Positions 9,175-55,532 of a DNA stretch of 64,000 bases are shown here, in pieces. Source of the DNA: Pyrobaculum sp. 3827-6 (GTDB lineage: Archaea > Thermoproteota > Thermoprotei > Thermoproteales > Thermoproteaceae); NCBI RefSeq assembly GCF_025641885.1, contig NZ_JAOTQN010000001.1, positions 1,116,001-1,180,000 of the forward strand, given 5' to 3'. Position 1 is the stretch's first letter. Each line of letters opens with the position of its first letter. The notes beneath the pieces were generated by a model. That model saw only the letters and a program-made list of their open reading frames with translations, ran no database searches and was not told the origin of the DNA. The translations under genes were made by a program, and so were the position numbers.

Positions 9175-9780
9175 ATGAAAATAGCATTCTATTCAGGCGG
9201 CAAGGACAGCGTCTACGCGTATCTTCTGGAAAAGCCGGTGGACCTCCTCTTCTTCTCCATATACAGCTTTCCGCGGCCTTCGCCGCATATCATAAACATA
9301 GGCAAGGCGCTGGAGCTGGCGGCGGCGTTGGGCGTTCCCGTAATAGCGGCGCCGTTGCCCAAGGGCCGGGAATTTAACTACAAGGCGGATTTGCTCAAGA
9401 GGCTGGGCGCCTCCGTCCTGGTAGCCGGCGACCAAGCCGTGGAGGACCACCTGGCCTACATGAAGAAGCTGGCTGACTCCGTTGGGGCGGAGCTCAAGGA
9501 ACCCCTCTGGGGAAGGGACCCGCGGGAGGTTCTCATGGAAGAGGTCAGGCGTATGGATTTCGTAGTGACCGGCGCCTTCCACAGGGAGTTGATATGTAAA
9601 GAGGTCAATGGAGAAAACGTGTTGGAATTCCTAGGGTTGCTGGAGAGGCTTGGGGTTGACCCCATCGGAGAGAGGGGCGAATACCACAGCCAAGTTGTGC
9701 GAGTTGGGGACGTGAGGGTGGAGTACCGTTGCGGCGGTGTGATGGACTTCGGCGGCTACTACATCGCCAAGCTGTTATGA
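9175..9780 (+). CDS. DPH6-like ATP pyrophosphatase (diphthine-ammonia ligase family)
   Basis: 201 residues from the ATG at 9175. PP-loop SGGKDS lies at about residues 7-12, and GERGEYHS near residue 164 matches the conserved GE(N/R)GE(F/Y)H motif of the DPH6/MJ0570 family. DPH6 amidates diphthine on elongation factor 2, the last step of diphthamide formation. Family members also exist with unknown substrates. The stop overlaps the cbiS start by 4 nt (ATGA), so it is first in an operon with cobamide salvage, which is odd for a translation-factor modification enzyme and leaves a corrinoid-related role open. Confidence 0.75.
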   Translation: MKIAFYSGGKDSVYAYLLEKPVDLLFFSIYSFPRPSPHIINIGKALELAAALGVPVIAAPLPKGREFNYKADLLKRLGASVLVAGDQAVEDHLAYMKKLADSVGAELKEPLWGRDPREVLMEEVRRMDFVVTGAFHRELICKEVNGENVLEFLGLLERLGVDPIGERGEYHSQVVRVGDVRVEYRCGGVMDFGGYYIAKLL

Positions 9781-10763
9781 CCGGGGTGAGGGTGGAGGAG
9801 GGCGGGCTCTGGGTCGAGGCGCCGGGTCTCGCCCTGTCCTCGACCGTAGACGGCGGGCTTAGGCGAGTCAAGGGCGCCGTTTTTAGGCAGGTCCGGGGGC
9901 GCGCGACGTGCGGCGAAATGGAGGCCGGGGCTTATCCAGATTACCTAAATTTCTACACAGCGGTTGACGTGGAGAGGCGCCACGCTGTGGTTAGTGGGGG
10001 CTGGGTGGACGTGGTGGCCACAGCTGGTTTAGGCAACACCATCAACGTCTTGGCTGTTCTACGCATCGAGCCCGACGCCAGGGCTTTGGCAGACGCCTTT
10101 AGACTCGCCGCCGAGGCCAAGGCCGTGGCCGCGTGCGACTTGGGGATTAGGCGCGGGGGCCGTAGGGTGGGAGGCGACGTCTCAGACGCCGTGGCTGTCG
10201 TGGCGACGGGCGGGGCGGCCCAGCGCTACGTCGGGCTGGGCACCGATGTGGGGGAGGAGCTATATAGGCTTGTCCGGGAGGCGGTGGTGAAGGCGCTCAG
10301 CGACTTGGGGGTCGACTGGGAGCTTAGGCAGAACCTCGGCGTGGGCTACGGCGACTTGCTAAACGCGGCTATGGAGATATACTCCAGGGCCCCCGTCCCA
10401 GGAGCCGGGGAGGTGGGCAAGGCGGTGAAGGAGATTCTAGACGCCTACCTGGCCGATCCCAATGTCTGGGCTTTTATATACGCCGCGGGGGAGCTAGACG
10501 CCAAGGCCGCGGCTGGTTGCCACCGGGGGCTCACGGCGGAGGAGCACGCGGGGGACAGCAAGAAGATTATTGCCGACGAGGCGCTGGGGGTGGCCCTGGC
10601 CCAGTACATAAACGGGTTTAAGGCTGTGGAGATGATGTACTGGATAGATAGAGAGAAGCCGGGGCCCCTGGCCAGCCTTCCGATGTACGCCGACGACATC
10701 GCCGCCGCCCTCCTCGCCGGGATCCTGTCGAGGCTGTACGACAAGTTGATATACGGAGTTTAG
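9777..10763 (+). CDS. cbiS: CbiS: adenosylcobinamide amidohydrolase fused to alpha-ribazole phosphatase
   Basis: 328 residues. The N-terminal part (to about residue 190) is CbiZ-like, with GNTINVLAVL and GGDVSDAVAVVATG around residues 130-142. The C-terminal part (about 215-328) is CobZ-like, with KIIADEALGVALAQYINGF, then a conserved DREKPG and YADD. In other archaea the same fusion, CbiS, cleaves the side chain of pseudo-cobamides to cobyric acid and removes the 5'-phosphate of alpha-ribazole phosphate or cobalamin phosphate. The start is the ATG at 9777 overlapping the previous stop. It acts with the cobamide cluster at 13.1-18.6 kb. Confidence 0.88.
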   Translation: MTGVRVEEGGLWVEAPGLALSSTVDGGLRRVKGAVFRQVRGRATCGEMEAGAYPDYLNFYTAVDVERRHAVVSGGWVDVVATAGLGNTINVLAVLRIEPDARALADAFRLAAEAKAVAACDLGIRRGGRRVGGDVSDAVAVVATGGAAQRYVGLGTDVGEELYRLVREAVVKALSDLGVDWELRQNLGVGYGDLLNAAMEIYSRAPVPGAGEVGKAVKEILDAYLADPNVWAFIYAAGELDAKAAAGCHRGLTAEEHAGDSKKIIADEALGVALAQYINGFKAVEMMYWIDREKPGPLASLPMYADDIAAALLAGILSRLYDKLIYGV

Positions 10764-10769
10764 TAGAGC

Positions 10770-11216
10770 GTGGATATACCCAGGTCTGTTAAGATACGGG
10801 ACGTTATAAAAGGCGAGATCGCAGACCCGGTCAACGTCGTGTTTGAAATCCCCCTCGAGGAGGTGAAGGCGGTTCTGCAGAGAGACGGCTGGGTAGAAGG
10901 CGTGTTTGAGCACAGAGCGGAGCTTGAGGGGAGGGAGCCGATATACACGGCGGCGAGGGACGTCGTGTGGATTTTTGTGAGGTTTCATATACGCCTCTGG
11001 CCCCACGGCGGCGTCTACCTCGGCAACGTCCACCTAGACGTCACGGAGGCCCTGGGCCACGTCGGTGAGCACAACGTGGGCCGTACCTACGTCGCTGGTC
11101 TCTACGCCCTTGCTGGCTACTGTGTAGAGGTCGTGCAACTAGGCCCCACGGAGAAGTTCGACGGCGCCGCCGTGAAGGTATTTAAATGTGGAAAGGAGGA
11201 GAGGCGTGAAGTTTAG
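10770..11216 (+). CDS. LssY_C-like domain protein
   Basis: 148 residues from a GTG 6 nt after cbiS. The pattern DPVNVVFEIPLEEVKAVL, then DGW, VRFHIRLWPHGG and VYLGNVHLD resembles the LssY C-terminal domain, which in other proteins follows a PAP2/DedA membrane part; no membrane helix is present here. Function unknown. It is third in the DPH6-like/cbiS operon and overlaps the next gene. The assignment is by motif order only. Confidence 0.5.
   Translation: MDIPRSVKIRDVIKGEIADPVNVVFEIPLEEVKAVLQRDGWVEGVFEHRAELEGREPIYTAARDVVWIFVRFHIRLWPHGGVYLGNVHLDVTEALGHVGEHNVGRTYVAGLYALAGYCVEVVQLGPTEKFDGAAVKVFKCGKEERREV
11192..11200 (+). promoter_or_regulatory. Shine-Dalgarno deciding the start at 11206
   Basis: AAGGAGGAG, five nt before the GTG. 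It is internal to the operon, where leadered translation is expected. Confidence 0.55.
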
Positions 11217-11508
11217 AATTCTCCTCGCGAGGAACATCCTCGAGGACGCGGGGGAGAAGGCGGTTTCAATAAAGATGCCCAACGGCGACGTGGTTATCAT
11301 CACCGAATACGGCGACTTGATCAAAGTGACGAGAGACGGCGTCTACAAGCCCCGGTGGGAGAGGATACAGGCAGATCCAGCCTTCTACAAACCCCTCTTC
11401 CCAGAGGAGGAGGTGGAGAAAGACCGCGCGAAGATACGGAGAGGCGACAAGCTAATAGCGAAGACTGGCCCGCTGGAAATAGAACTGGGGCAACTAGTCG
11501 AGTATTAA
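11206..11508 (+). CDS. Small conserved-looking protein, fourth gene of the cbiS operon
   Basis: 100 residues from the GTG at 11206, chosen because a strong Shine-Dalgarno (AAGGAGGAG, 11192-11200) lies 5 nt before it. A GTG at 11188 would place that motif inside the gene. The sequence is basic and mixed alpha/beta, with no recognised motif (KMPNGDVVIITEYGDLIKV, later EEEVEKDRAKIRRGDKLI). It overlaps the LssY-like gene by 11 nt. I do not recognise the family. Confidence 0.6.
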   Translation: MKFRILLARNILEDAGEKAVSIKMPNGDVVIITEYGDLIKVTRDGVYKPRWERIQADPAFYKPLFPEEEVEKDRAKIRRGDKLIAKTGPLEIELGQLVEY

Positions 11509-11581
11509 CCCCGCGCTTCACTTAGAACAATTTTGGCAGATAAGCGACATAAAAGACGAAGGTTTCATAGGTATGATTCTT

Positions 11582-12079
11582 TTATTCCGCTGGGCCAGAG
11601 ATCCGTGGATTTGTAGCAGTGTCTGCGGTTACCACAATAACTTCTCCGTATCTAGAGGCTTTGAGAGCTATTGAAAAAATCTCCAAATCGTCGCCAGTTA
11701 CCCCTCTAGTAATCTCTGTCAACGTCCTATCATCTTCGCCGATTATACTGGCGGCGCTTCTAGCCAGTATGTGCAGTTTTAACCCAACCCCACTCGTCAA
11801 CGGCATGTCTCTACATATCCACGATTTTGCCCGCGCGATGTTTAGAATAACGTCTATAGTCCTCACGAGTGATGATTGGAGCTTGGGTAGAGGGTGGCGA
11901 TGACTACGGAGCAGAGGTATGACTTTTGTTCTCAACGTCTTGAGATACTTCGCGGAAACAAACCACGTGGACTCGAGGGATGGTAGCTTGTTCCCTATCA
12001 GCTCTATGGCCCGTTTCTCCTCCCTAGGCTTGTCTCCGCAGGGGATAAGCGCCGAGTGATCTAGAACCAGGTGAAACAT
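11582..12079 (-). CDS. PIN-like nuclease paired with AAA ATPase
   Basis: 165 residues. The start LVLDHSALIP gives the first PIN aspartate (D7). Near the C-terminus GDDLEIFSIALKA (D130, D131) and VVTADT (D153) match the third and fourth acidic positions of PIN domains. The middle is longer than in VapC toxins. The gene begins at the very next base after the ATPase gene ends (12080), so the two are almost certainly co-translated. This suggests an ATPase-controlled RNA or DNA nuclease, possibly defence. No antitoxin-like gene is next to it. Confidence 0.6.
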   Translation of the reverse strand: MFHLVLDHSALIPCGDKPREEKRAIELIGNKLPSLESTWFVSAKYLKTLRTKVIPLLRSHRHPLPKLQSSLVRTIDVILNIARAKSWICRDMPLTSGVGLKLHILARSAASIIGEDDRTLTEITRGVTGDDLEIFSIALKASRYGEVIVVTADTATNPRISGPAE

Positions 12080-13111
12080 TTAGAATATCTGTGACACTAC
12101 CTCCAGGGCGCCTGGCAATTCTTCAAAAGTCCCATCTTCATAAACTTCAATTTTCTTAACTCTTGTCCATGGCGCCTCTTGGCTCCTTTCCAGATAGTAG
12201 AGAGCTATATCACCTGTACTGAGCCTACCTGTTTCGACCTCCTTAGCGATGGCGTTTAGAATGACGTCGCTATGTGTAGTTATGACTAGAGTTATTCTCT
12301 TCTCTACGGCCTTTTCTAGATCTTTTACCATCTCTATTAGGAGGAGGGGGTTTTTGTGGGCCTCAGGCTCCTCGATAACTAGAAGGCTGTCTTTCCGCGC
12401 CTTTTCTATATACATTTTAACAAGTGACAAATCTACTGCGCCGTCAGGAGCCCGCTCTATTGGCAACCTATGCTCTACAAAAGGATCCCGATATTTAAGG
12501 TCTGCAAGAAGGGGGAATAGAAGCGATATGTTTTCAGTTAGTACCCCCGCCTCTCTTCCCAAGTCGTAGTGATGGGGAGATGTACCGACGCCGTAGAGGC
12601 TAAAGAAATCCTCAATGAAAAAGTAGGTGGGCGGTATCCCAGCTAATAAATCTCGATAATTTTCAAGAAGAATCAGCGCCATGATCTGACGACTCGCACT
12701 ACCAACTCTATGCGCCGTTAATACGCGCCTACTTAATATTTTTGTGAGAAAGTATAAACTCTTTATCAATGCTATTCTCTGCGAGGGTAGCAGGTAGGCG
12801 CGGCTCCAGGGGCTCCTCTGCGGCATCTTAACGCCGTCTACTGTGGCTACAAATCTCGACTCGCCGACCACTATCTCGACAGGGTAAAACTTCTCACCTG
12901 ATACCTGCCTTACCAATTCTTTGAATGGAGCGCCGTAGAGCCGCCGCGCCACCTTGTTAACGTCTCTCCACTCTGATATCTTGGCAAGGAAGTAAGCGGC
13001 ATACGCCAGGCTAGACTTCCCGCTGGCGTTTTTCCCAATGAAGATGGTAATGGGCCTTAGGTCGAGCCTCGCCTCTTCTATACACCGCCAGTTCCTCACA
13101 TACAACTCCAC
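12080..13111 (-). CDS. AAA/SMC-like ATPase (AAA_21/OLD-type)
   Basis: 343 residues. Walker A GKNASGKSS at residues 26-34 directly follows an ABC/SMC-like N-terminal strand (MELYVRNWRCIEEARLDL). Walker B LLVIEEPEAH sits near residues 243-252 and a histidine switch ITTHSDVI about 28 residues later. This is the compact OLD/AAA_21 type found in many defence and DNA-repair modules, without the TOPRIM nuclease of OLD. The downstream PIN gene abuts it, so nuclease activity is probably supplied in trans. There is no sign of a DNA methylase or reverse transcriptase nearby. Confidence 0.75.
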   Translation of the reverse strand: MELYVRNWRCIEEARLDLRPITIFIGKNASGKSSLAYAAYFLAKISEWRDVNKVARRLYGAPFKELVRQVSGEKFYPVEIVVGESRFVATVDGVKMPQRSPWSRAYLLPSQRIALIKSLYFLTKILSRRVLTAHRVGSASRQIMALILLENYRDLLAGIPPTYFFIEDFFSLYGVGTSPHHYDLGREAGVLTENISLLFPLLADLKYRDPFVEHRLPIERAPDGAVDLSLVKMYIEKARKDSLLVIEEPEAHKNPLLLIEMVKDLEKAVEKRITLVITTHSDVILNAIAKEVETGRLSTGDIALYYLERSQEAPWTRVKKIEVYEDGTFEELPGALEVVSQIF

Positions 13112-13146
13112 GTCTATGACGCAGGTGTGGTATATATGTCTTTGAA

Positions 13147-13608
13147 CTACCAGTCCAGCCCCTTTACGGCTACCCGGCGGTTGTAGTAGTGCTTTGTGGG
13201 CTGAATCGTGGATATCAAGTCGGCGGCCTCCTCAGCCTCGGGCCAGAGGTAGTTCCCGGTTATGACGACGTGGGGCTTAAGCGTTGCCAGCTTCTTGACG
13301 TAGCTAGGCTCTATGAAGCCCTGCCTCACGGCGTAGTTAAACTCGTCTAGTATGACCAAGTCGTAGCTGTCGGCCACTTCAAGCACGCTCTCCACCAAGG
13401 CGAGGGGCGATCCGAAGTCGCTGAGGTACGCCACGTCCACGCCCAGCCTCCGCAAAGCCTTGTACTCCCCCACCTCCTCCCCCATGTAATAGGGAGTCTT
13501 CATAACAAAAGCCGCGAGAACCCTCATGCCGTGGCCCCAAGCCCTCAGCAACGTCCCAAGCGCAGCCGTGGTCTTGCCCTTTCCGCCCCCCGTATACACC
13601 AGCAACAC
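13147..13608 (-). CDS. cobA: Cob(I)yrinic acid a,c-diamide adenosyltransferase, CobA/BtuR type
   Basis: 153 residues from the GTG at 13608. P-loop GGGKGKTTA is at residues 7-15, VILDEFNYAV (Walker B region of CobA) near the middle, and VVITGN follows. CobA adenosylates the cobalt of corrinoids and is needed before side-chain attachment. A longer in-frame extension reaches 13797, but it would overlap most of the upstream gene's end and shows no family motif; the GTG lies 31 nt after that gene. Same strand and order as the CobY fusion, so probably one operon. Confidence 0.85.
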   Translation of the reverse strand: MLLVYTGGGKGKTTAALGTLLRAWGHGMRVLAAFVMKTPYYMGEEVGEYKALRRLGVDVAYLSDFGSPLALVESVLEVADSYDLVILDEFNYAVRQGFIEPSYVKKLATLKPHVVITGNYLWPEAEEAADLISTIQPTKHYYNRRVAVKGLDW

Positions 13609-13639
13609 AGAAATGCCCCGATCCGTAAATAAAATAACA

Positions 13640-14485
13640 TTACGTAATTTGCGCCGCCCGCCTGCGGAGCTCGGCCACCGGCACCTCAATGGTGGGTATT
13701 TCCGAGATGTGCCTCCCGCGGTATGTGTGCCAGGTGGTCTTGGGCGGGTACACCGCACCCCTGGCCGCTCTGTCCAACACCTCACCCTTGTCCACATTTA
13801 CGTCAACGACCGCATAGTCGAAGAGTAGAACGGGGGCCGGGAGGCGGGCCCTCTTAAGGAAGCGGTGGCGGTGGTGGCCGTCCAGTATCACGCCAGATCG
13901 GTAGTCCACGGCGATGGGCCTAACGACCTCGTAGACCCTATCCTCAAGCACGTCTTCATGCGGCCTCAGCCGCTCCGGGTCGATGTAGAGGGGATAGGCC
14001 GCTGGACACAGCTCCTCGGCCTCGGCCAGGTCCTCGGCGGTATCCACATCAACAAGGCGGCCGACCTCCACGGAGGTCCACCTCTCCAAGTCTGTGTTGG
14101 GTATGTAGGACAGGCCTACGGGCTCCCCCCGCGACAGCGCTGTGGTGAATATCTTCTCCCGCAGGAGCGCCTCGACGTGGGCTGGGGTCAGATTGGCGAT
14201 GTCGCACGCCGCGACCACTACGGGGGCTAGCTGGACAACGTGGAGCACGTCCCTCTCGTAGCCAAGCCCCGGGGTGGCAATTACTTGGAGCCCCCATTTC
14301 TCAGCCGCTTCTATAACCTCGCTGTGTCTCGTCGTCGTCGCGACATAGATCTTGTCCGCGACCTGCGCCAGCGCCCCCGCCACTCGAAATAACAGGGGGA
14401 CGCCGCAGACGGGCGCCAGACACTTCTGAGGGTTTCCGAAGCGGCTCCCCCTCCCCCCTGCCATAATCACTGCTGAAATGTTCAT
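13640..14485 (-). CDS. cobY: CobY-like guanylyltransferase fused to a ParB/SerK-like domain
   Basis: 281 residues from the ATG at 14485. The N-terminal part (about 1-160) is a nucleotidyltransferase with MAGGRGSRFG and a distal VDVDTAEDL, as in archaeal CobY, which transfers GMP to adenosylcobinamide phosphate. CobY proteins are about 200 residues. The extra C-terminal part has RPHEDVLEDRVYEV, VILDGHHRHRFLK (DGHHR at 202-206) and LFDYAVVDV, the pattern of ParB/sulfiredoxin-fold amino-acid kinases such as archaeal SerK. Because the divergent neighbour is CobD, which needs L-threonine phosphate, I infer this domain is an L-threonine kinase. Starts further upstream (to 14539) would run into the cobD gene. 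Confidence 0.72.
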   Translation of the reverse strand: MNISAVIMAGGRGSRFGNPQKCLAPVCGVPLLFRVAGALAQVADKIYVATTTRHSEVIEAAEKWGLQVIATPGLGYERDVLHVVQLAPVVVAACDIANLTPAHVEALLREKIFTTALSRGEPVGLSYIPNTDLERWTSVEVGRLVDVDTAEDLAEAEELCPAAYPLYIDPERLRPHEDVLEDRVYEVVRPIAVDYRSGVILDGHHRHRFLKRARLPAPVLLFDYAVVDVNVDKGEVLDRAARGAVYPPKTTWHTYRGRHISEIPTIEVPVAELRRRAAQIT

Positions 14486-14533
14486 AATAGGGAGAAAGGT
14501 CCAATAGATAAAAATAGAGACAAACCGCTTGAC

Positions 14534-15439
14534 GTGCACGGCGGCTCCACATGGGCTGAGGAGGCGCCTCTGGACTTCTCCGACAACTCAAACCCCATCG
14601 GGCCGCCTGCGGGGTTTTGGGAGGCGCTGAGGGAAGCAGTGGAGAGGGGTGTTCACCGGAGGTTTCCGGCCCACCTCGCCGAGGAGACCCTGTCGCAGTA
14701 CGAGGGACTTCCTGTGATCCTCTTCAACGGGGCTACCGAGGCGCTTCTCTACGCCCTGCTGGAGCTGAGGCCTAGGAGGGTGCTCACGGTCTGGCCCACA
14801 TACGGCGACTACCAAAGAGTTGCAGAGTTGCTGGGGGTGCCCCTCCGCCAGGTGCCGCCCTGGGGCCTCAAGTCGGCGGGGGGCGGCGATGTGGTGATAC
14901 TCTGCAACCCCAACAACCCAACCGGCGCCTACCTCCCGCGGGACTGGGTGGTGGACACGGCTAGGAGGCTTGAGGCGAGGGGGGCGCGCCTCCTTGTAGA
15001 CGAGTCGTTTATCGACTTCGCCAGAGGCGAGTCCGCCGCGCCTGACGTCGCCGTGGTTAAGTCATACGGCAAATTCCTAGCGGCGCCGGGGCTGAGGGTG
15101 GGGGCGCTGTTGTTTAAGCCGTCCCGTCCCCCGCCGTGGCGAATAAACAGCTTTGCTGACTACGCCCTCTGGAGGCTGGGCCCAGAGGCTCTGCGCAGAC
15201 ATAGAGAAAAGACGCTGGAGTACCTAGCCGAGGAGAAGCCGAGAATTGTAGAGAAGCTGAGGAGGTGCGCCCCGGTGGCCCCGAGCTGGGTGCACTTCCA
15301 CATAGTGTTCTCCGACCCCCCGCCTGGCGTAAAAGTGAGGCCCCTCTGGGACAAGGGGGTGAGGGGCTTCCGCTTCTCTCTAAGAACGCCCGCTGAAAAC
15401 AACGTGTTGGTACACGCCGTCTGCCGCCATGTGCGTTAG
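14534..15439 (+). CDS. cobD: L-threonine-O-3-phosphate decarboxylase (CobD)
   Basis: 301 residues from a GTG. The N-terminus HGGSTW, then LDFSDNSNPIGPP, is the CobD/histidinol-phosphate-aminotransferase-like signature. CNPNNPTGAYLP and LVDESFIDF are fold-type I PLP motifs, and the PLP lysine is K180 in SYGKFLAAPGLR. It makes (R)-1-amino-2-propanol phosphate, the linker of the nucleotide loop. It is shorter than bacterial CobD (about 360). It is divergent from the CobY fusion with 48 nt between starts, and overlaps cobS by 11 nt. Confidence 0.87.
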   Translation: MHGGSTWAEEAPLDFSDNSNPIGPPAGFWEALREAVERGVHRRFPAHLAEETLSQYEGLPVILFNGATEALLYALLELRPRRVLTVWPTYGDYQRVAELLGVPLRQVPPWGLKSAGGGDVVILCNPNNPTGAYLPRDWVVDTARRLEARGARLLVDESFIDFARGESAAPDVAVVKSYGKFLAAPGLRVGALLFKPSRPPPWRINSFADYALWRLGPEALRRHREKTLEYLAEEKPRIVEKLRRCAPVAPSWVHFHIVFSDPPPGVKVRPLWDKGVRGFRFSLRTPAENNVLVHAVCRHVR

Positions 15440-16073
15440 AGATCTGCTCAGCTTCTTTACAATACTCCCCCTCGGCGGGCGGGGCCTCGGCTTCTCCTGC
15501 CTCTGGGCTCTGCCCTACCTAGGGGCGGCTGTGGTGGGCGGCGCGGGGGCCTTTGTGTACTACCTCACGGGCGACGGGAGGGTTGCCTACTTCGCCTTGT
15601 TGGCGGCGACGGGGCTGAACCACGTAGACGGCCTCGCAGACGTTGCAGACGCCTTGATGGTGAGGGACCGCGGAAGGGCGCGTGCCGTGTTGGAGGATCC
15701 CCACAGAGGCGCCGCCGCCGTCTTTGCCGTGTCGGCGGCGGTCTTGCTGGGCGCCTCGGCGCATGTAGACGGCTGGTGGGACTACATACTGGCGGATTCC
15801 TACTCCAAGGCGCTGACCGTAGTAGCCGCAACCTTCTCCAAGCCGTTTAAGCCGGGGCTCGGGGCGGAGTTCATAACTCACGCCAGGCGGCAGTGGCCCG
15901 CGGCGCTACCCGCGCTAGCCCTCGCCGCCTGGCTAAACCCCCGGGCATTCGCAGTTGCCACCGCCGCGGCTCTGCTTCTATACGCCGCGGCCTATAGACA
16001 CCTCGGCGGGGCGAACGGCGACATCTTCGGCTTTCTCCTGGAGATATCCAGGGTGGCGTATCTATACCCGTGA
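15429..16073 (+). CDS. cobS: Adenosylcobalamin-5'-phosphate synthase (CobS)
   Basis: 214 residues, polytopic with about six hydrophobic segments. GLNHVDGLADVADALM holds the conserved Asp-rich motif of CobS, and GGANGDIFG near the C-terminus is the second signature. The enzyme joins adenosyl-GDP-cobinamide to alpha-ribazole (phosphate) in the membrane. It overlaps cobD upstream (11 nt) and cbiB downstream (4 nt), so translation is coupled. Confidence 0.9.
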   Translation: MCVRDLLSFFTILPLGGRGLGFSCLWALPYLGAAVVGGAGAFVYYLTGDGRVAYFALLAATGLNHVDGLADVADALMVRDRGRARAVLEDPHRGAAAVFAVSAAVLLGASAHVDGWWDYILADSYSKALTVVAATFSKPFKPGLGAEFITHARRQWPAALPALALAAWLNPRAFAVATAAALLLYAAAYRHLGGANGDIFGFLLEISRVAYLYP

Positions 16074-16960
16074 TAGAGCCTCTGCTGGTAGCCCTGTTGC
16101 TGGAAATTCTCGACGTGCCTAGGTGGTGGCGCGGCCACTTGGTGAGCAGGCTGATCCCCCCGCAGATCCACCCGGTTTCCCTCTACTACCGCCTCATAGC
16201 GCCTCTAGCCCGGGGCGGGGGCCTGCGGCGCGGCCTCCTCATAGCTTCGACGGCGCCGGCCGTTGCGGCGGCGGTGGCCGTATTTATGTGGCTTGTCAAC
16301 AAACACGTCGGGGGTCTCGCCGCTGTTCTCATAGAGGGGTACATGCTGAAGCTTACGTTCTCCATAACCCACATCATCTACCCATGCCTCTGGCGCCTCT
16401 CCAAGCCCGACTTCCCAAGAGTCGTCCAGGAGTTCGTCAGGAGGGATTTGTCCAACGCCAGCAGGGGTCATGTAAACTCTGCATGTATAGAGACCGCGGC
16501 GGAGTCGCTGGTGGACTCCTTCATATCTCCCCTGTTTTGGTACGCCATCCTTGGGTTGCCGGGGGCGTGGCTCCAGCGCCTTGTAAATACCCTAGACGGC
16601 CTCGTGGGCTCCCCCGAGAGGGGGAGGCTGGGCGCCCCATCCGCCTATCTAGACACGGCTATGAACTACATCCCAGCGAGGGTAGCGGCTCTCCTAATCT
16701 TGGCCGTCGGCGGCTTTAGGAACGCCCAGTGGCTCTCACAGAGGAGGGCTGTTCCGAGCATAAACGCTGGGTGGCCCATCGCCGCCATGGCCGCGGCCCT
16801 GGGGGTGATGCTGGAGAAGCCGGGCGCCTACAGCCTAGGCGGCGGTAGTCTACCGGACGAGGGAGCAGTCCGCAGGGGACTGGCCGCTACGGCTTTAGCC
16901 GCGGCGGCGTGGTCAGCCGTGATAATGCTTATAATATGGATAAAGTGCCAATATTTTTAA
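16070..16960 (+). CDS. cbiB: Adenosylcobinamide-phosphate synthase (CbiB)
   Basis: 296 residues from a GTG that overlaps the cobS stop. The CbiB signatures are present: NASRGHVNSACIETAAESL, DSFISPLFWYAILGLPGAW, NTLDGLVG and NYIPARVAALL. Several membrane helices are visible. The enzyme attaches aminopropanol phosphate to adenosylcobyric acid. The C-terminus overlaps the cobT start by 25 nt. Confidence 0.9.
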   Translation: MIEPLLVALLLEILDVPRWWRGHLVSRLIPPQIHPVSLYYRLIAPLARGGGLRRGLLIASTAPAVAAAVAVFMWLVNKHVGGLAAVLIEGYMLKLTFSITHIIYPCLWRLSKPDFPRVVQEFVRRDLSNASRGHVNSACIETAAESLVDSFISPLFWYAILGLPGAWLQRLVNTLDGLVGSPERGRLGAPSAYLDTAMNYIPARVAALLILAVGGFRNAQWLSQRRAVPSINAGWPIAAMAAALGVMLEKPGAYSLGGGSLPDEGAVRRGLAATALAAAAWSAVIMLIIWIKCQYF

Positions 16961-17976
16961 ATGAGTGGGATCTAGGCGCTGTGGACGAGCTCCTGCTCGT
17001 CGTGGTGGGCACCACCGATGTCTCGACGATCCCCGGCGTCTCCATAGCGGGGCCTACGCCTGAGGCTACGCTCTACACCCCGACGCTAGACGTGGAATAT
17101 TTAGTAACGGGGAGGCCCCTCACCCTAGACGTCATCCCCGTCACGCCTACCGGCATACCCACGCCGGTGCTGGTCACGCGTGCGCTGGCCAAGGGGTTGC
17201 CTAAGTTAGTGGTAGACGCAGGTTGTAAATATCCTCCCAAAATCCCGGTGGTGCATTTGGGAGGGATCCACGGCGGCGACATTAGGCGGGGGGCTCTGCC
17301 GCGGGAGGTGGTGGAGAGGCTTGTGGAGAGGGGGCGGACCCTCGGCAGAGGTCTAGCCCCCCTCAGGCTGGCAATTGGCGAGTCTATTCCGGGGGGCACC
17401 ACCACGGCTATGGCCCAGCTGGTGGCTCTCGGATACGACGCTTGGGGTAGGACGAGCAGCGCCTCGCCCAACAACCCCAAGGGGTTGAAAATTGCTATTG
17501 TAAAAGAGGCGGTGTCCCGCCTCAAGATACCCGCCGACGCCGTGACCGCGGCGGCCGAGGTGGGCGACCCCGTCCACATCTCGGTGGCAGCCATAGCGCT
17601 GGGCGCGGTGGAGGAGGGCGCCGAGGTAATCCTCGCCGGGGGGACCCAGATGGCGGCCGCCGCGGCGCTCTATAAGGCGCTGGGCGGCGATCCCGGCCGG
17701 CTTACGGTGGCCACCACGCGGTGGATAGTGGAGGATAGAAGCGCCGACTTTATGGGACTTATGAAAGAGGTGGGGGTAAGCCGCGTGGTGTATTCCAACG
17801 CCTCCTTCGCCGCGTCGAGATTCGAGGGGCTGAGGGCGTACGAAGCCGGCTACGTGAAGGAGGGGGTCGCCATGGGGTACGCCCTCTGGAGGGCCGAGAG
17901 GCGCGGGCTAGACGTCCTCCGGCTGGTGGAGGAGGAGTATATGAGAATTACGAAGGCCGGAGGCGCGGGGCGGTGA
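16936..17976 (+). CDS. cobT: Archaeal CobT-like nicotinate-nucleotide phosphoribosyltransferase (UPF0284)
   Basis: 346 residues from the ATG at 16936. It follows the archaeal CobT/UPF0284 type: VGTTDVSTIPGVSIAGPTPE, then HLGGIHGGD, SIPGGTTTAMAQL and VILAGGTQMAAAAAL. It would activate the lower-ligand base as an alpha-ribotide. It is embedded between cbiB and cbiE with overlaps on both sides. An upstream in-frame start at 16909 would add nine residues without family support. Confidence 0.83.
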   Translation: MDKVPIFLNEWDLGAVDELLLVVVGTTDVSTIPGVSIAGPTPEATLYTPTLDVEYLVTGRPLTLDVIPVTPTGIPTPVLVTRALAKGLPKLVVDAGCKYPPKIPVVHLGGIHGGDIRRGALPREVVERLVERGRTLGRGLAPLRLAIGESIPGGTTTAMAQLVALGYDAWGRTSSASPNNPKGLKIAIVKEAVSRLKIPADAVTAAAEVGDPVHISVAAIALGAVEEGAEVILAGGTQMAAAAALYKALGGDPGRLTVATTRWIVEDRSADFMGLMKEVGVSRVVYSNASFAASRFEGLRAYEAGYVKEGVAMGYALWRAERRGLDVLRLVEEEYMRITKAGGAGR

Positions 17977-21871: not shown

Positions 21872-22099
21872 ATGGAAATTGTGGAAGTTGACGGTTCTGG
21901 GAGAATTTATCTGCCAGCCAAAATTAGAAGGCGGTTTGGAGTTAGGCGTTTTAGAGTGAAGATTGTAGAACAGGGTATTTTGCTAGAACCTCTAGACGAC
22001 GTGGATAAGTACTACGGGAAGTTTGGCCCGCCTAGGTATCAAACTCTGGAGGAGATAGAGGAGGCTTTGAAAGATGTCTCGCAAATGGATTTACATTGA
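21872..22099 (+). CDS. vapB: VapB antitoxin, AbrB type
   Basis: 75 residues. VDGSGRIYLPAKIRRRFG and FRVKIVEQGILLEPL form the swapped-hairpin DNA-binding domain. The C-terminal RYQTLEEIEEALKDV is a helix that should bind the toxin. It overlaps vapC by 26 nt, and the promoter is a clear TATA box 26 nt upstream. Autorepression is expected for the family. Confidence 0.85.
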   Translation: MEIVEVDGSGRIYLPAKIRRRFGVRRFRVKIVEQGILLEPLDDVDKYYGKFGPPRYQTLEEIEEALKDVSQMDLH

Positions 22100-22448
22100 T
22101 GTAAATGTTCTTTATTATTTTTTTACAGCTCATCCAAAATACGGAGAGGGCTCTCGTGAGCTGATAAAAAACTACGCGGGGAGGCTTGCCACCTCGGCTC
22201 TTACCGCCTGGCTACTCTACGTATTAACACGAAACGAAGAGGTCGTAGAGGCGGTAAGAGATTTAACAACGTTGCTACCGCTTGACGCAGAGGTTTTAAA
22301 CAGAGCCAGGAGTCTGGCTAAGCCAAGAGATTTTGAAGACAAGATCCACCTCGCCACTATGCAGATCTACGGCATAGACACCATACTATCCAACGACGGC
22401 GACTTCGACAATGCAGGCGTGCATAGAATTCCCCCTAGAGCAAAGTAG
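22074..22448 (+). CDS. vapC: VapC toxin, PIN domain
   Basis: 124 residues. IYIDVNVLYYFF gives the first aspartate, FEDKIHLATMQIYG the third acidic cluster, and ILSNDGDFDNAGVHRI the last. This is an intact PIN ribonuclease toxin, expected to be inhibited by the VapB encoded 26 nt before it in an overlapping frame. Confidence 0.85.
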   Translation: MSRKWIYIDVNVLYYFFTAHPKYGEGSRELIKNYAGRLATSALTAWLLYVLTRNEEVVEAVRDLTTLLPLDAEVLNRARSLAKPRDFEDKIHLATMQIYGIDTILSNDGDFDNAGVHRIPPRAK

Positions 22449-54774: not shown

Positions 54775-55188
54775 GTGGATGCCAGGGAGTTTACCAGATG
54801 GATAGCCATGGCGGAGAGGACCTTGTCCTCTGCCGTGGGCGACGCCGAACGGGGCGACTTCAACTGGGCTTGTTTTAAGGCGCATCAAGCCGCCGAGTTC
54901 GCACTCAAGGCTCTGCTGTATGGCGTAGGGATGCCCGCCAGGGGGCATTCCCTCACCCACCTAATCGCCGGGGTCAGCCGTCTGGTGCCGGTGGGTGAAG
55001 ACGTCGTGGAGCTGTGCAGACTCCTTGATAAGTTCTACATACCAACGAGGTACGTGGATGCCTGGAGCGAGGGGTCGCCATTTGAGTACTTCTCCCGCAG
55101 AGACGCAGACGCGGCTATTAAAGCCGCCGAGGAGGTCATCAAATTCGTGAAGGGAGTATGGAGATCTTTAAGTGGAGAGAGGAGTTGA
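54775..55188 (+). CDS. HEPN-domain protein
   Basis: 137 residues from a GTG. WIAMAERTLSSAVGDAERGD, ACFKAHQAAEFALKALLYG and GHSLTHLI are the HEPN family's helix pairs with the AHQAAE helix. RYVDAWSEGSPFEYFSRRDA is the usual end before the last helix. HEPN proteins pair with MNT nucleotidyltransferases; some are RNases. The 3' end overlaps the MNT gene by 31 nt. Confidence 0.85.
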   Translation: MDAREFTRWIAMAERTLSSAVGDAERGDFNWACFKAHQAAEFALKALLYGVGMPARGHSLTHLIAGVSRLVPVGEDVVELCRLLDKFYIPTRYVDAWSEGSPFEYFSRRDADAAIKAAEEVIKFVKGVWRSLSGERS

Positions 55189-55532
55189 GGAGGCGGGCAT
55201 GGGAGGCGGCTGAGCGGGTGGCCGCGTCGGTTGAGGGCACAGTACTCCTCGTGGGCTCGTACGCCAGAGGAGACTACGGAGAGGACAGCGACATAGATGT
55301 CCTAGTAGTTGGACACTTCTCCGAGCCTCCCCACCGGAGGCTAGCCGGGCTAAAGACGCCGCCCGGTGTAGAGGTAATAGCGCTAAACCTAGAGGAGGCG
55401 CTTAAAGTCGTCGAGAAGTGCTACCCCCTAGCCCTCGACATTGCACTGGGAATAGTTATTAAAGACGACCTCGGAGTAGCCCAGCAACTCATATCCACAG
55501 CAAAGCACTGCGCCGTCCAGAGGCGCCTCTAG
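55158..55532 (+). CDS. MNT nucleotidyltransferase paired with HEPN
   Basis: 124 residues. GSYARGDYGEDSDIDVLVV has G33-S34 and the metal-binding D45 and D47. It overlaps the HEPN gene start-to-end, a typical two-gene HEPN/MNT toxin-antitoxin unit in which MNT adenylylates or otherwise neutralises the HEPN toxin. Confidence 0.85.
   Translation: MEIFKWREELRRRAWEAAERVAASVEGTVLLVGSYARGDYGEDSDIDVLVVGHFSEPPHRRLAGLKTPPGVEVIALNLEEALKVVEKCYPLALDIALGIVIKDDLGVAQQLISTAKHCAVQRRL

Follow-up and report, generated by a model that had tools for sequence, protein, structure and literature searches.

The question raised by this locus is whether two abutting genes, one for an ATPase and one for a small PIN-like protein, form a defence module, and whether the copy found here still works. 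A reading made from the sequence alone had proposed the pair, at 11582-13111 of the window (the whole 64,000-nucleotide stretch analysed here), as a candidate for such a module. To our knowledge, immunity other than CRISPR is poorly charted in hyperthermophilic archaea. The ATPase/PIN unit is compact and has intact copies in other archaea, which makes it easy to test.

The two-gene unit and its ATPase

Both predicted genes were recovered as described, on the minus strand and with zero intergenic bases, the stop codon of the ATPase gene lying directly 5′ of the ATG of the PIN gene. This junction suggests translational coupling. The features of the locus are as follows.

12080..13111, minus strand: gene for an OLD/ABC-type ATPase of 343 aa, with a GTG start (from the ORF, Pfam matches and a reading of the motifs)
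11582..12079, minus strand: gene for a PIN-fold protein, 165 aa in its present form (ORF call; fold taken from a homologue)
12077..12085, minus strand: zero-base junction at which the ATG of the PIN gene comes immediately after the ATPase stop TAA
13131..13138, minus strand: TATA-box-like stretch, about 20-27 bases 5′ of the ATPase start (by eye)
11518..11619, minus strand: remainder of the PIN gene in the next frame, where the C-terminal end known from homologues can be read (about 11521-11619), with a stop

Other ORFs of at least 60 aa within 11508-13147 run only antisense to the two genes. The TATA-box-like stretch falls within the 35-base gap that separates a CobA-type gene from the ATPase start.

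The ATPase carries a Walker A motif (GKNASGKS, at 26), a Walker B motif (LLVIEEPE, at 243) and an H-loop (TTHS, at 278), and matches the Pfam models AAA_15 (5.7e-19) and AAA_21 (3.8e-13, over residues 21-286). All features by which we recognise an OLD/ABC-type defence ATPase are present, namely Walker A, Walker B with EEPE, the H-loop and a profile match above cut-off. Domain profile searches matched no nuclease model, TOPRIM included, within its 343 residues, in agreement with the earlier description of an OLD/AAA_21-type ATPase lacking a nuclease of its own. OLD families with a fused nuclease (classes 1-3 and 5) were ruled out on the same grounds of length and absence of a TOPRIM match. Among PADLOC profiles the best match was NsnB (1.3e-25), followed by AriA (1.5e-21), and both profiles matched all six ATPase members. 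Because as many as 119 PADLOC profiles match the window ATPase at E <= 10, we assign it to the OLD/ABC group and not to any single system. Its relatives of solved structure include OLD, retron/Septu PtuA and GajA.

Fold, active site and length of the small protein

The small protein of the window had no match in Pfam, PADLOC or NCBIfam. Pfam PIN models were likewise unmatched by five of the six family members, and neither a TOPRIM nor an AriB profile matched the family. Two PADLOC hits (LmuB, 0.0042; Cas4, 0.029), each seen in a single one of the six members, were dismissed as chance, as was the only match (0.31) returned when solved structures were searched by sequence with the PIN profile. 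The fold was therefore approached through L010, a full-length homologue of 189 aa, whose structure was predicted from four sequences with a pLDDT of 88.4 and a pTM of 0.86. VIA-align of this model placed Nmd4 (Z 10.6), HARP RNase P (9.7) and archaeal VapC4 (9.4) at the top, over 144-151 residues; a cyclodehydratase also scored Z 8.0. Foldseek of the same model against the PDB gave nothing at E <= 0.001, its top rows being a cyclodehydratase and pantothenate synthetases. A PIN fold is thus supported for the family, by the predicted structure of a full-length homologue and not of the window product. The absence of such a fold, which had been named as a reason to abandon the proposal, is not what we found, as the model is confidently predicted and PIN proteins head the VIA-align results. 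Five weak profile matches elsewhere in the phylum also display PIN-like motifs and adjoin a NAD-kinase-like gene. By eye, we take them to be Nob1-type PIN proteins with a NAD kinase as neighbour, and this resemblance lends sequence support to the PIN fold.

D7, D131, E133 and D153 are invariant in the six aligned members, as are DHSALIPCGDKP, E21, K22, H60, P63-L64-P65, H103 and R107. The acids D7, D131 and D153 singled out beforehand are thus conserved; D130, which had been listed together with D131, is variable. On the L010 model, D7 ends strand 1, D131 (with E133) lies where the helix preceding the next-to-last strand begins, and D153 just after that strand; the three-acid placement of the PIN superfamily was found in all six members. 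For the motif-2 acid, we inspected by eye the helix that follows strand 2; in none of the six is there a D or E within its first ten residues. The family therefore resembles the HARP and VapC PIN ribonucleases in its fold and in conserving the first, third and fourth acids, but differs from them by the missing motif-2 acid and by its family-specific DHSALIPCGDKP and PLP stretches. Membership of VapBC was rejected, the upstream gene encoding a 343-aa ATPase and not a small DNA-binding antitoxin.

The three invariant acids together with E133 argue for catalysis, and nuclease activity seems likely from these residues. The absent motif-2 acid and the top match to Nmd4, a PIN protein not known to have a complete active site, leave room for a non-catalytic PIN. 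On this rests an alternative in which the pair would be a housekeeping or regulatory unit of RNA processing or chromatin, with the PIN protein as a non-catalytic binding module comparable to Nmd4 and the ATPase as a regulator comparable to Cran1. An archaeal precedent exists, since PMC12796447 describes Cran1, an archaeal OLD ATPase, as having a role in the cell cycle and not in defence; in its authors' words no OLD protein of an archaeon had been characterised before. However, invariance of D7, D131, D153 and E133 is not needed in a mere binding module.

Intact homologues of the small protein have 184-196 residues, against 165 in the window. A profile of five homologues covers the in-frame window product at positions 1-154 of 188, and the next frame resumes at profile positions 155-184, exactly where the in-frame match ends; the frame changes just past D153. 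Alone, the next-frame segment scores -2.3 bits. When it is joined to the in-frame part, the score goes up to 175.1 bits from 165.2, the actual in-frame end reaching 166.3. A score as high as that of the joined product was reached by 4 of 2000 shuffled tails. Among 2000 random translations from the window 10 did so, some of which perhaps come from the same place. When the shortened product was aligned with the same four sequences, its structure was poorly predicted (pLDDT 42.4). The PIN reading made from the sequence alone therefore holds, by way of the homologue model, but the length of 165 residues is apparently the result of a frame disruption. This disruption may be due to decay or to an assembly error, and the window copy may be inactive.

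Pairing, spread and surroundings of the pair

The same ATPase subfamily is encoded directly upstream of the PIN gene in all eight loci with a strong PIN match (the window, G003, G009, G019, L009, L010, L011 and L012). Homologues that always occur apart, which would have spoken against a functional pair, were thus not observed in the loci searched. The PIN gene was found in 4 of 61 genomes, that of the window counted. A search of genome contigs gave four loci, with the L009 protein identical to that of G358. Across the phylum, a strong PIN-profile match (E < 1e-25) occurred in 5 of 398 genomes, and the five weak matches mentioned above reached only 6e-5 to 7e-4. Conversely, the ATPase profile matched at E <= 1e-20 in 6 of 397 phylum genomes, that is, the five paired ones of that sample and G371. 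As these 397-398 genomes are a sample of a larger group, with no more than five ATPase candidates scored in each, distant unpaired homologues may be missed. No relative of the PIN protein was found in viral, plasmid and phage collections.

Copies are disrupted at four of the eight loci: in the PIN gene in the window and L012, in the ATPase gene in L009 and in both genes in G009. The L009 and L012 disruptions come from metagenome-derived genomes, where errors are common. The copies of G003, G019, L010 and L011 are intact. These observations bear on whether the window copy is a relic, with a frameshifted PIN gene from which no working effector is made in this genome. The out-of-frame C-terminal end is a precise continuation of the in-frame match, the shortened product is predicted to fold poorly and further copies are also broken; every conserved acid is nevertheless still in frame, the ATPase is intact and one sequencing or assembly error would look identical. 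For the window copy only, we put the relic at just short of an even chance, and it is compatible with a sensor-effector explanation for the family.

The distribution of the pair within Thermoproteota is patchy. Its G+C content is 48.4%, whereas the window as a whole has 56.6% and the flanks have 59-62%; an equally low value was found in 16 of 250 stretches of the same size. The ATPase of G003, a congener, is 64% identical to that of L010, a Desulfurococcales MAG, and 51% identical to that of the window. The patchy presence, the low G+C here and similarities at odds with kinship indicate, at the level of sequence, that the pair moves horizontally. Such movement, and a presence in so few of the 61 genomes, would ill suit an essential task, and we consider the housekeeping or regulatory role set out above quite improbable.

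According to Pfam, the neighbours of the pair are a CobA-type gene, an NTP transferase gene, a CbiZ-type gene and two genes without a match. The CobA-type and NTP transferase genes precede the pair on the same strand; the CbiZ-type and other genes face it. A defence island at the window locus was ruled out by these cobalamin genes. A search of 21 genomes, that of the window included, found a CobA-type gene in 16. Seven other CobA loci belong to the genus of the window (L039-L042, L044-L046), and none of them has the pair next to the CobA-type gene. A link between cobalamin and the pair was ruled out in turn, as other copies lie elsewhere and the CobA-type gene stands without the pair at all seven of these loci. 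A search for the pair in defence islands, as recommended with the original proposal, thus gave a divided answer, with the window copy beside cobalamin genes and some other copies near OLD/TOPRIM or HEPN/nucleotidyltransferase pairs. Near the G009 copy, an OLD-like ATPase gene and a TOPRIM gene lie within a few kilobases, and the same genes were recognised by eye as fragments near that of G003. L009 and L010 carry a second AAA_21 ATPase near the pair. HEPN and nucleotidyltransferase pairs lie near the pair of G019; HEPN pairs are common in the genomes of archaeal thermophiles, so that as neighbours they are weak evidence for defence.

Several further observations concern these surroundings. The cobalamin-related cluster extends over 13147-17976, with its CobA/CobO/BtuR-type and NTP transferase genes identified by Pfam and those at 14534-17976 resembling cobalamin genes by eye. 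On the other side, a single ORF at 9774-10763 encodes a CbiZ domain and, after it, a PgpA domain, and looks like a fusion. The two genes without a Pfam match are ORFs of 148 and 106 aa at 10770-11508, and the 106-aa gene had one weak match among 20 other genomes searched. From the ORF list, a VapC-like PIN ORF (22074-22448) and a HEPN/nucleotidyltransferase-like gene pair (54775-55532) were noticed by eye. Repeats around the pair and tRNA genes within the window were uninformative. At 3905-5526 of L010, a 154-aa gene without a Pfam match overlaps the end of the second AAA_21 ATPase gene, a candidate for another ATPase/effector pair adjoining the ATPase/PIN pair.

Known systems and possible function

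NsnB, the defence profile nearest to the window ATPase, is presumably a component of Menshen. Menshen is described in PMC10952713 as a DUF262 gene with a predicted OLD nuclease. From the Pfam matches of the neighbours, neither of these genes adjoins the window pair, and membership of Menshen was rejected. PARIS has a similar two-gene layout, in which an OLD-type ABC ATPase that lacks a nuclease of its own stands next to a small nuclease-like effector, and its AriA profile matches our ATPases. In PARIS (split 'class 4' OLD), however, the effector AriB is a TOPRIM tRNase, whereas the effector here would have a PIN fold. Membership was rejected, as no AriB-type TOPRIM gene lies beside the ATPase and the partner family is PIN-fold. 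According to PMC12409363, AriA sequesters AriB, and a phage protein frees AriB to cut tRNA.

The same general plan has been reported near BREX loci, where OLD-ABC ATPases are also paired with HNH, PD-(D/E)XK and PIN nucleases, pairings that PMC12839542 credits to an earlier ABC-ATPase survey. The OLD-ABC and PIN endoRNase pairs of that report are comparable to ours by description only, and no BREX gene is present among the window neighbours scanned. An ATPase with a PIN protein is thus already known as a plan. The earlier impression that no named system has exactly this pair agrees with the searches made, with this plan as a qualification. A literature search outside subscription papers and preprints found no paper attributable to this PIN family. 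What is new, judging from the sequences compared, is a PIN family with an unusual active site, five of six members of which escape the Pfam PIN models, and which is always paired with one ATPase subfamily.

We hold it to be slightly on the probable side that the pair is a module that moves horizontally and works as sensor and effector, or as antitoxin and toxin, in which the ATPase restrains a PIN RNase and releases it on insult. The OLD/ABC-type ATPase would bind ATP, form an oligomer and keep the small PIN-fold protein inactive in a physical complex. Infection or another insult would cause it to free or activate the PIN protein, which would then cleave RNA (tRNA, rRNA or mRNA), halting translation and virus growth. 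Observed in its support are the abutting genes, the motifs of the ATPase, the pairing at every locus with a strong PIN match, the conserved acids and the patchy, shuffled distribution, with the PIN fold by prediction. Further evidence for it comes from the ATPase, which is nearest to defence ATPases (NsnB and AriA, with PtuA and GajA among its solved relatives), from the neighbourhoods of some other copies and from the precedents of PARIS and of AAA antitoxins. A defence role is plausible by analogy; the missing motif-2 acid, the cobalamin neighbours, the lack of a mobile-element or viral copy in the collections searched and the Cran1 precedent count against it. The candidate defence module first proposed therefore remains plausible, but this copy stands outside a defence island, its PIN gene looks broken and the family had no viral, plasmid or phage copy.

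Part of the same evidence would also fit a plain toxin-antitoxin pair serving addiction or stress, with the ATPase as antitoxin, the PIN protein as toxin and no antiviral task. PIN toxins with diverse antitoxins are common, and loss of integrity at half of the eight loci is as expected for costly or readily lost genes. The 'D29' AAA antitoxins of NetFlax neutralise several toxins, RNase-like and TOPRIM ones, and in AarT and the other D29 pairs an AAA ATPase is antitoxin to a small nuclease-like toxin, as in the proposed module; the partners named in the accessible text are TOPRIM, HNH, HEPN and mRNA-interferase-like, and PIN is not among them (PMC10440598). On the other hand, the nearest relatives of the ATPase belong to defence systems, and PARIS, of the same two-gene plan, senses phage according to PMC12409363. 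The toxin-antitoxin and defence readings overlap, and we regard a plain toxin-antitoxin role as unlikely. The unit would tell whether the PARIS principle, in which an ATPase holds back an RNase that stops translation, extends to archaea and to nucleases of other folds, and its OLD ATPase would contrast with the cell-cycle role given for Cran1 in the source above (PMC12796447).

More distant ATPases also have small downstream partners. In G371 and its relative G447, a small gene lies 1 base downstream of the ATPase gene, with weak PIN_3 matches (0.008 and 3.4e-4, respectively) below the Pfam cut-off. An hhalign comparison of the G371 ATPase with the window subfamily gave an alignment along the length of the protein (probability 99.2%), and the G371 small protein has no sequence similarity to the window PIN family. 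The phylum profile search yielded 13 further, more distant ATPase loci (L057-L069, E between 1e-12 and 3e-18), 11 of which have a same-strand ORF overlapping or at most 2 bases downstream when longest-ORF starts are used. Ten partners were scanned with Pfam, nine from these loci and that of L055 (the G447 partner); a clear PIN was found in L062 only (3.1e-15), and the L061 partner is PIN-like by eye. Tentatively, and with somewhat less than even confidence, we propose that the pair represents an archaeal family, as yet without a name, of immune systems or toxins. In it, an OLD-type ATPase would control an atypical PIN ribonuclease with a rebuilt active site, the invariant DHSALIPCGDKP loop taking the place of the motif-2 acid, and related Thermoproteota ATPases would have swapped downstream effectors among unrelated small nucleases, including more than one PIN lineage.

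At seven of the distant loci (L057, L059, L060, L064, L067, L068 and L069), an OLD-type ATPase is followed by a protein of about 120-180 aa. Pfam scans of five such partners gave no match for four and a weak HSDR_N match (0.049) for the fifth. By eye, several of the small partners at these seven loci share a motif resembling HAD-L-C-N-VVIVIEET, and proteins with this motif are possibly another nuclease partner.
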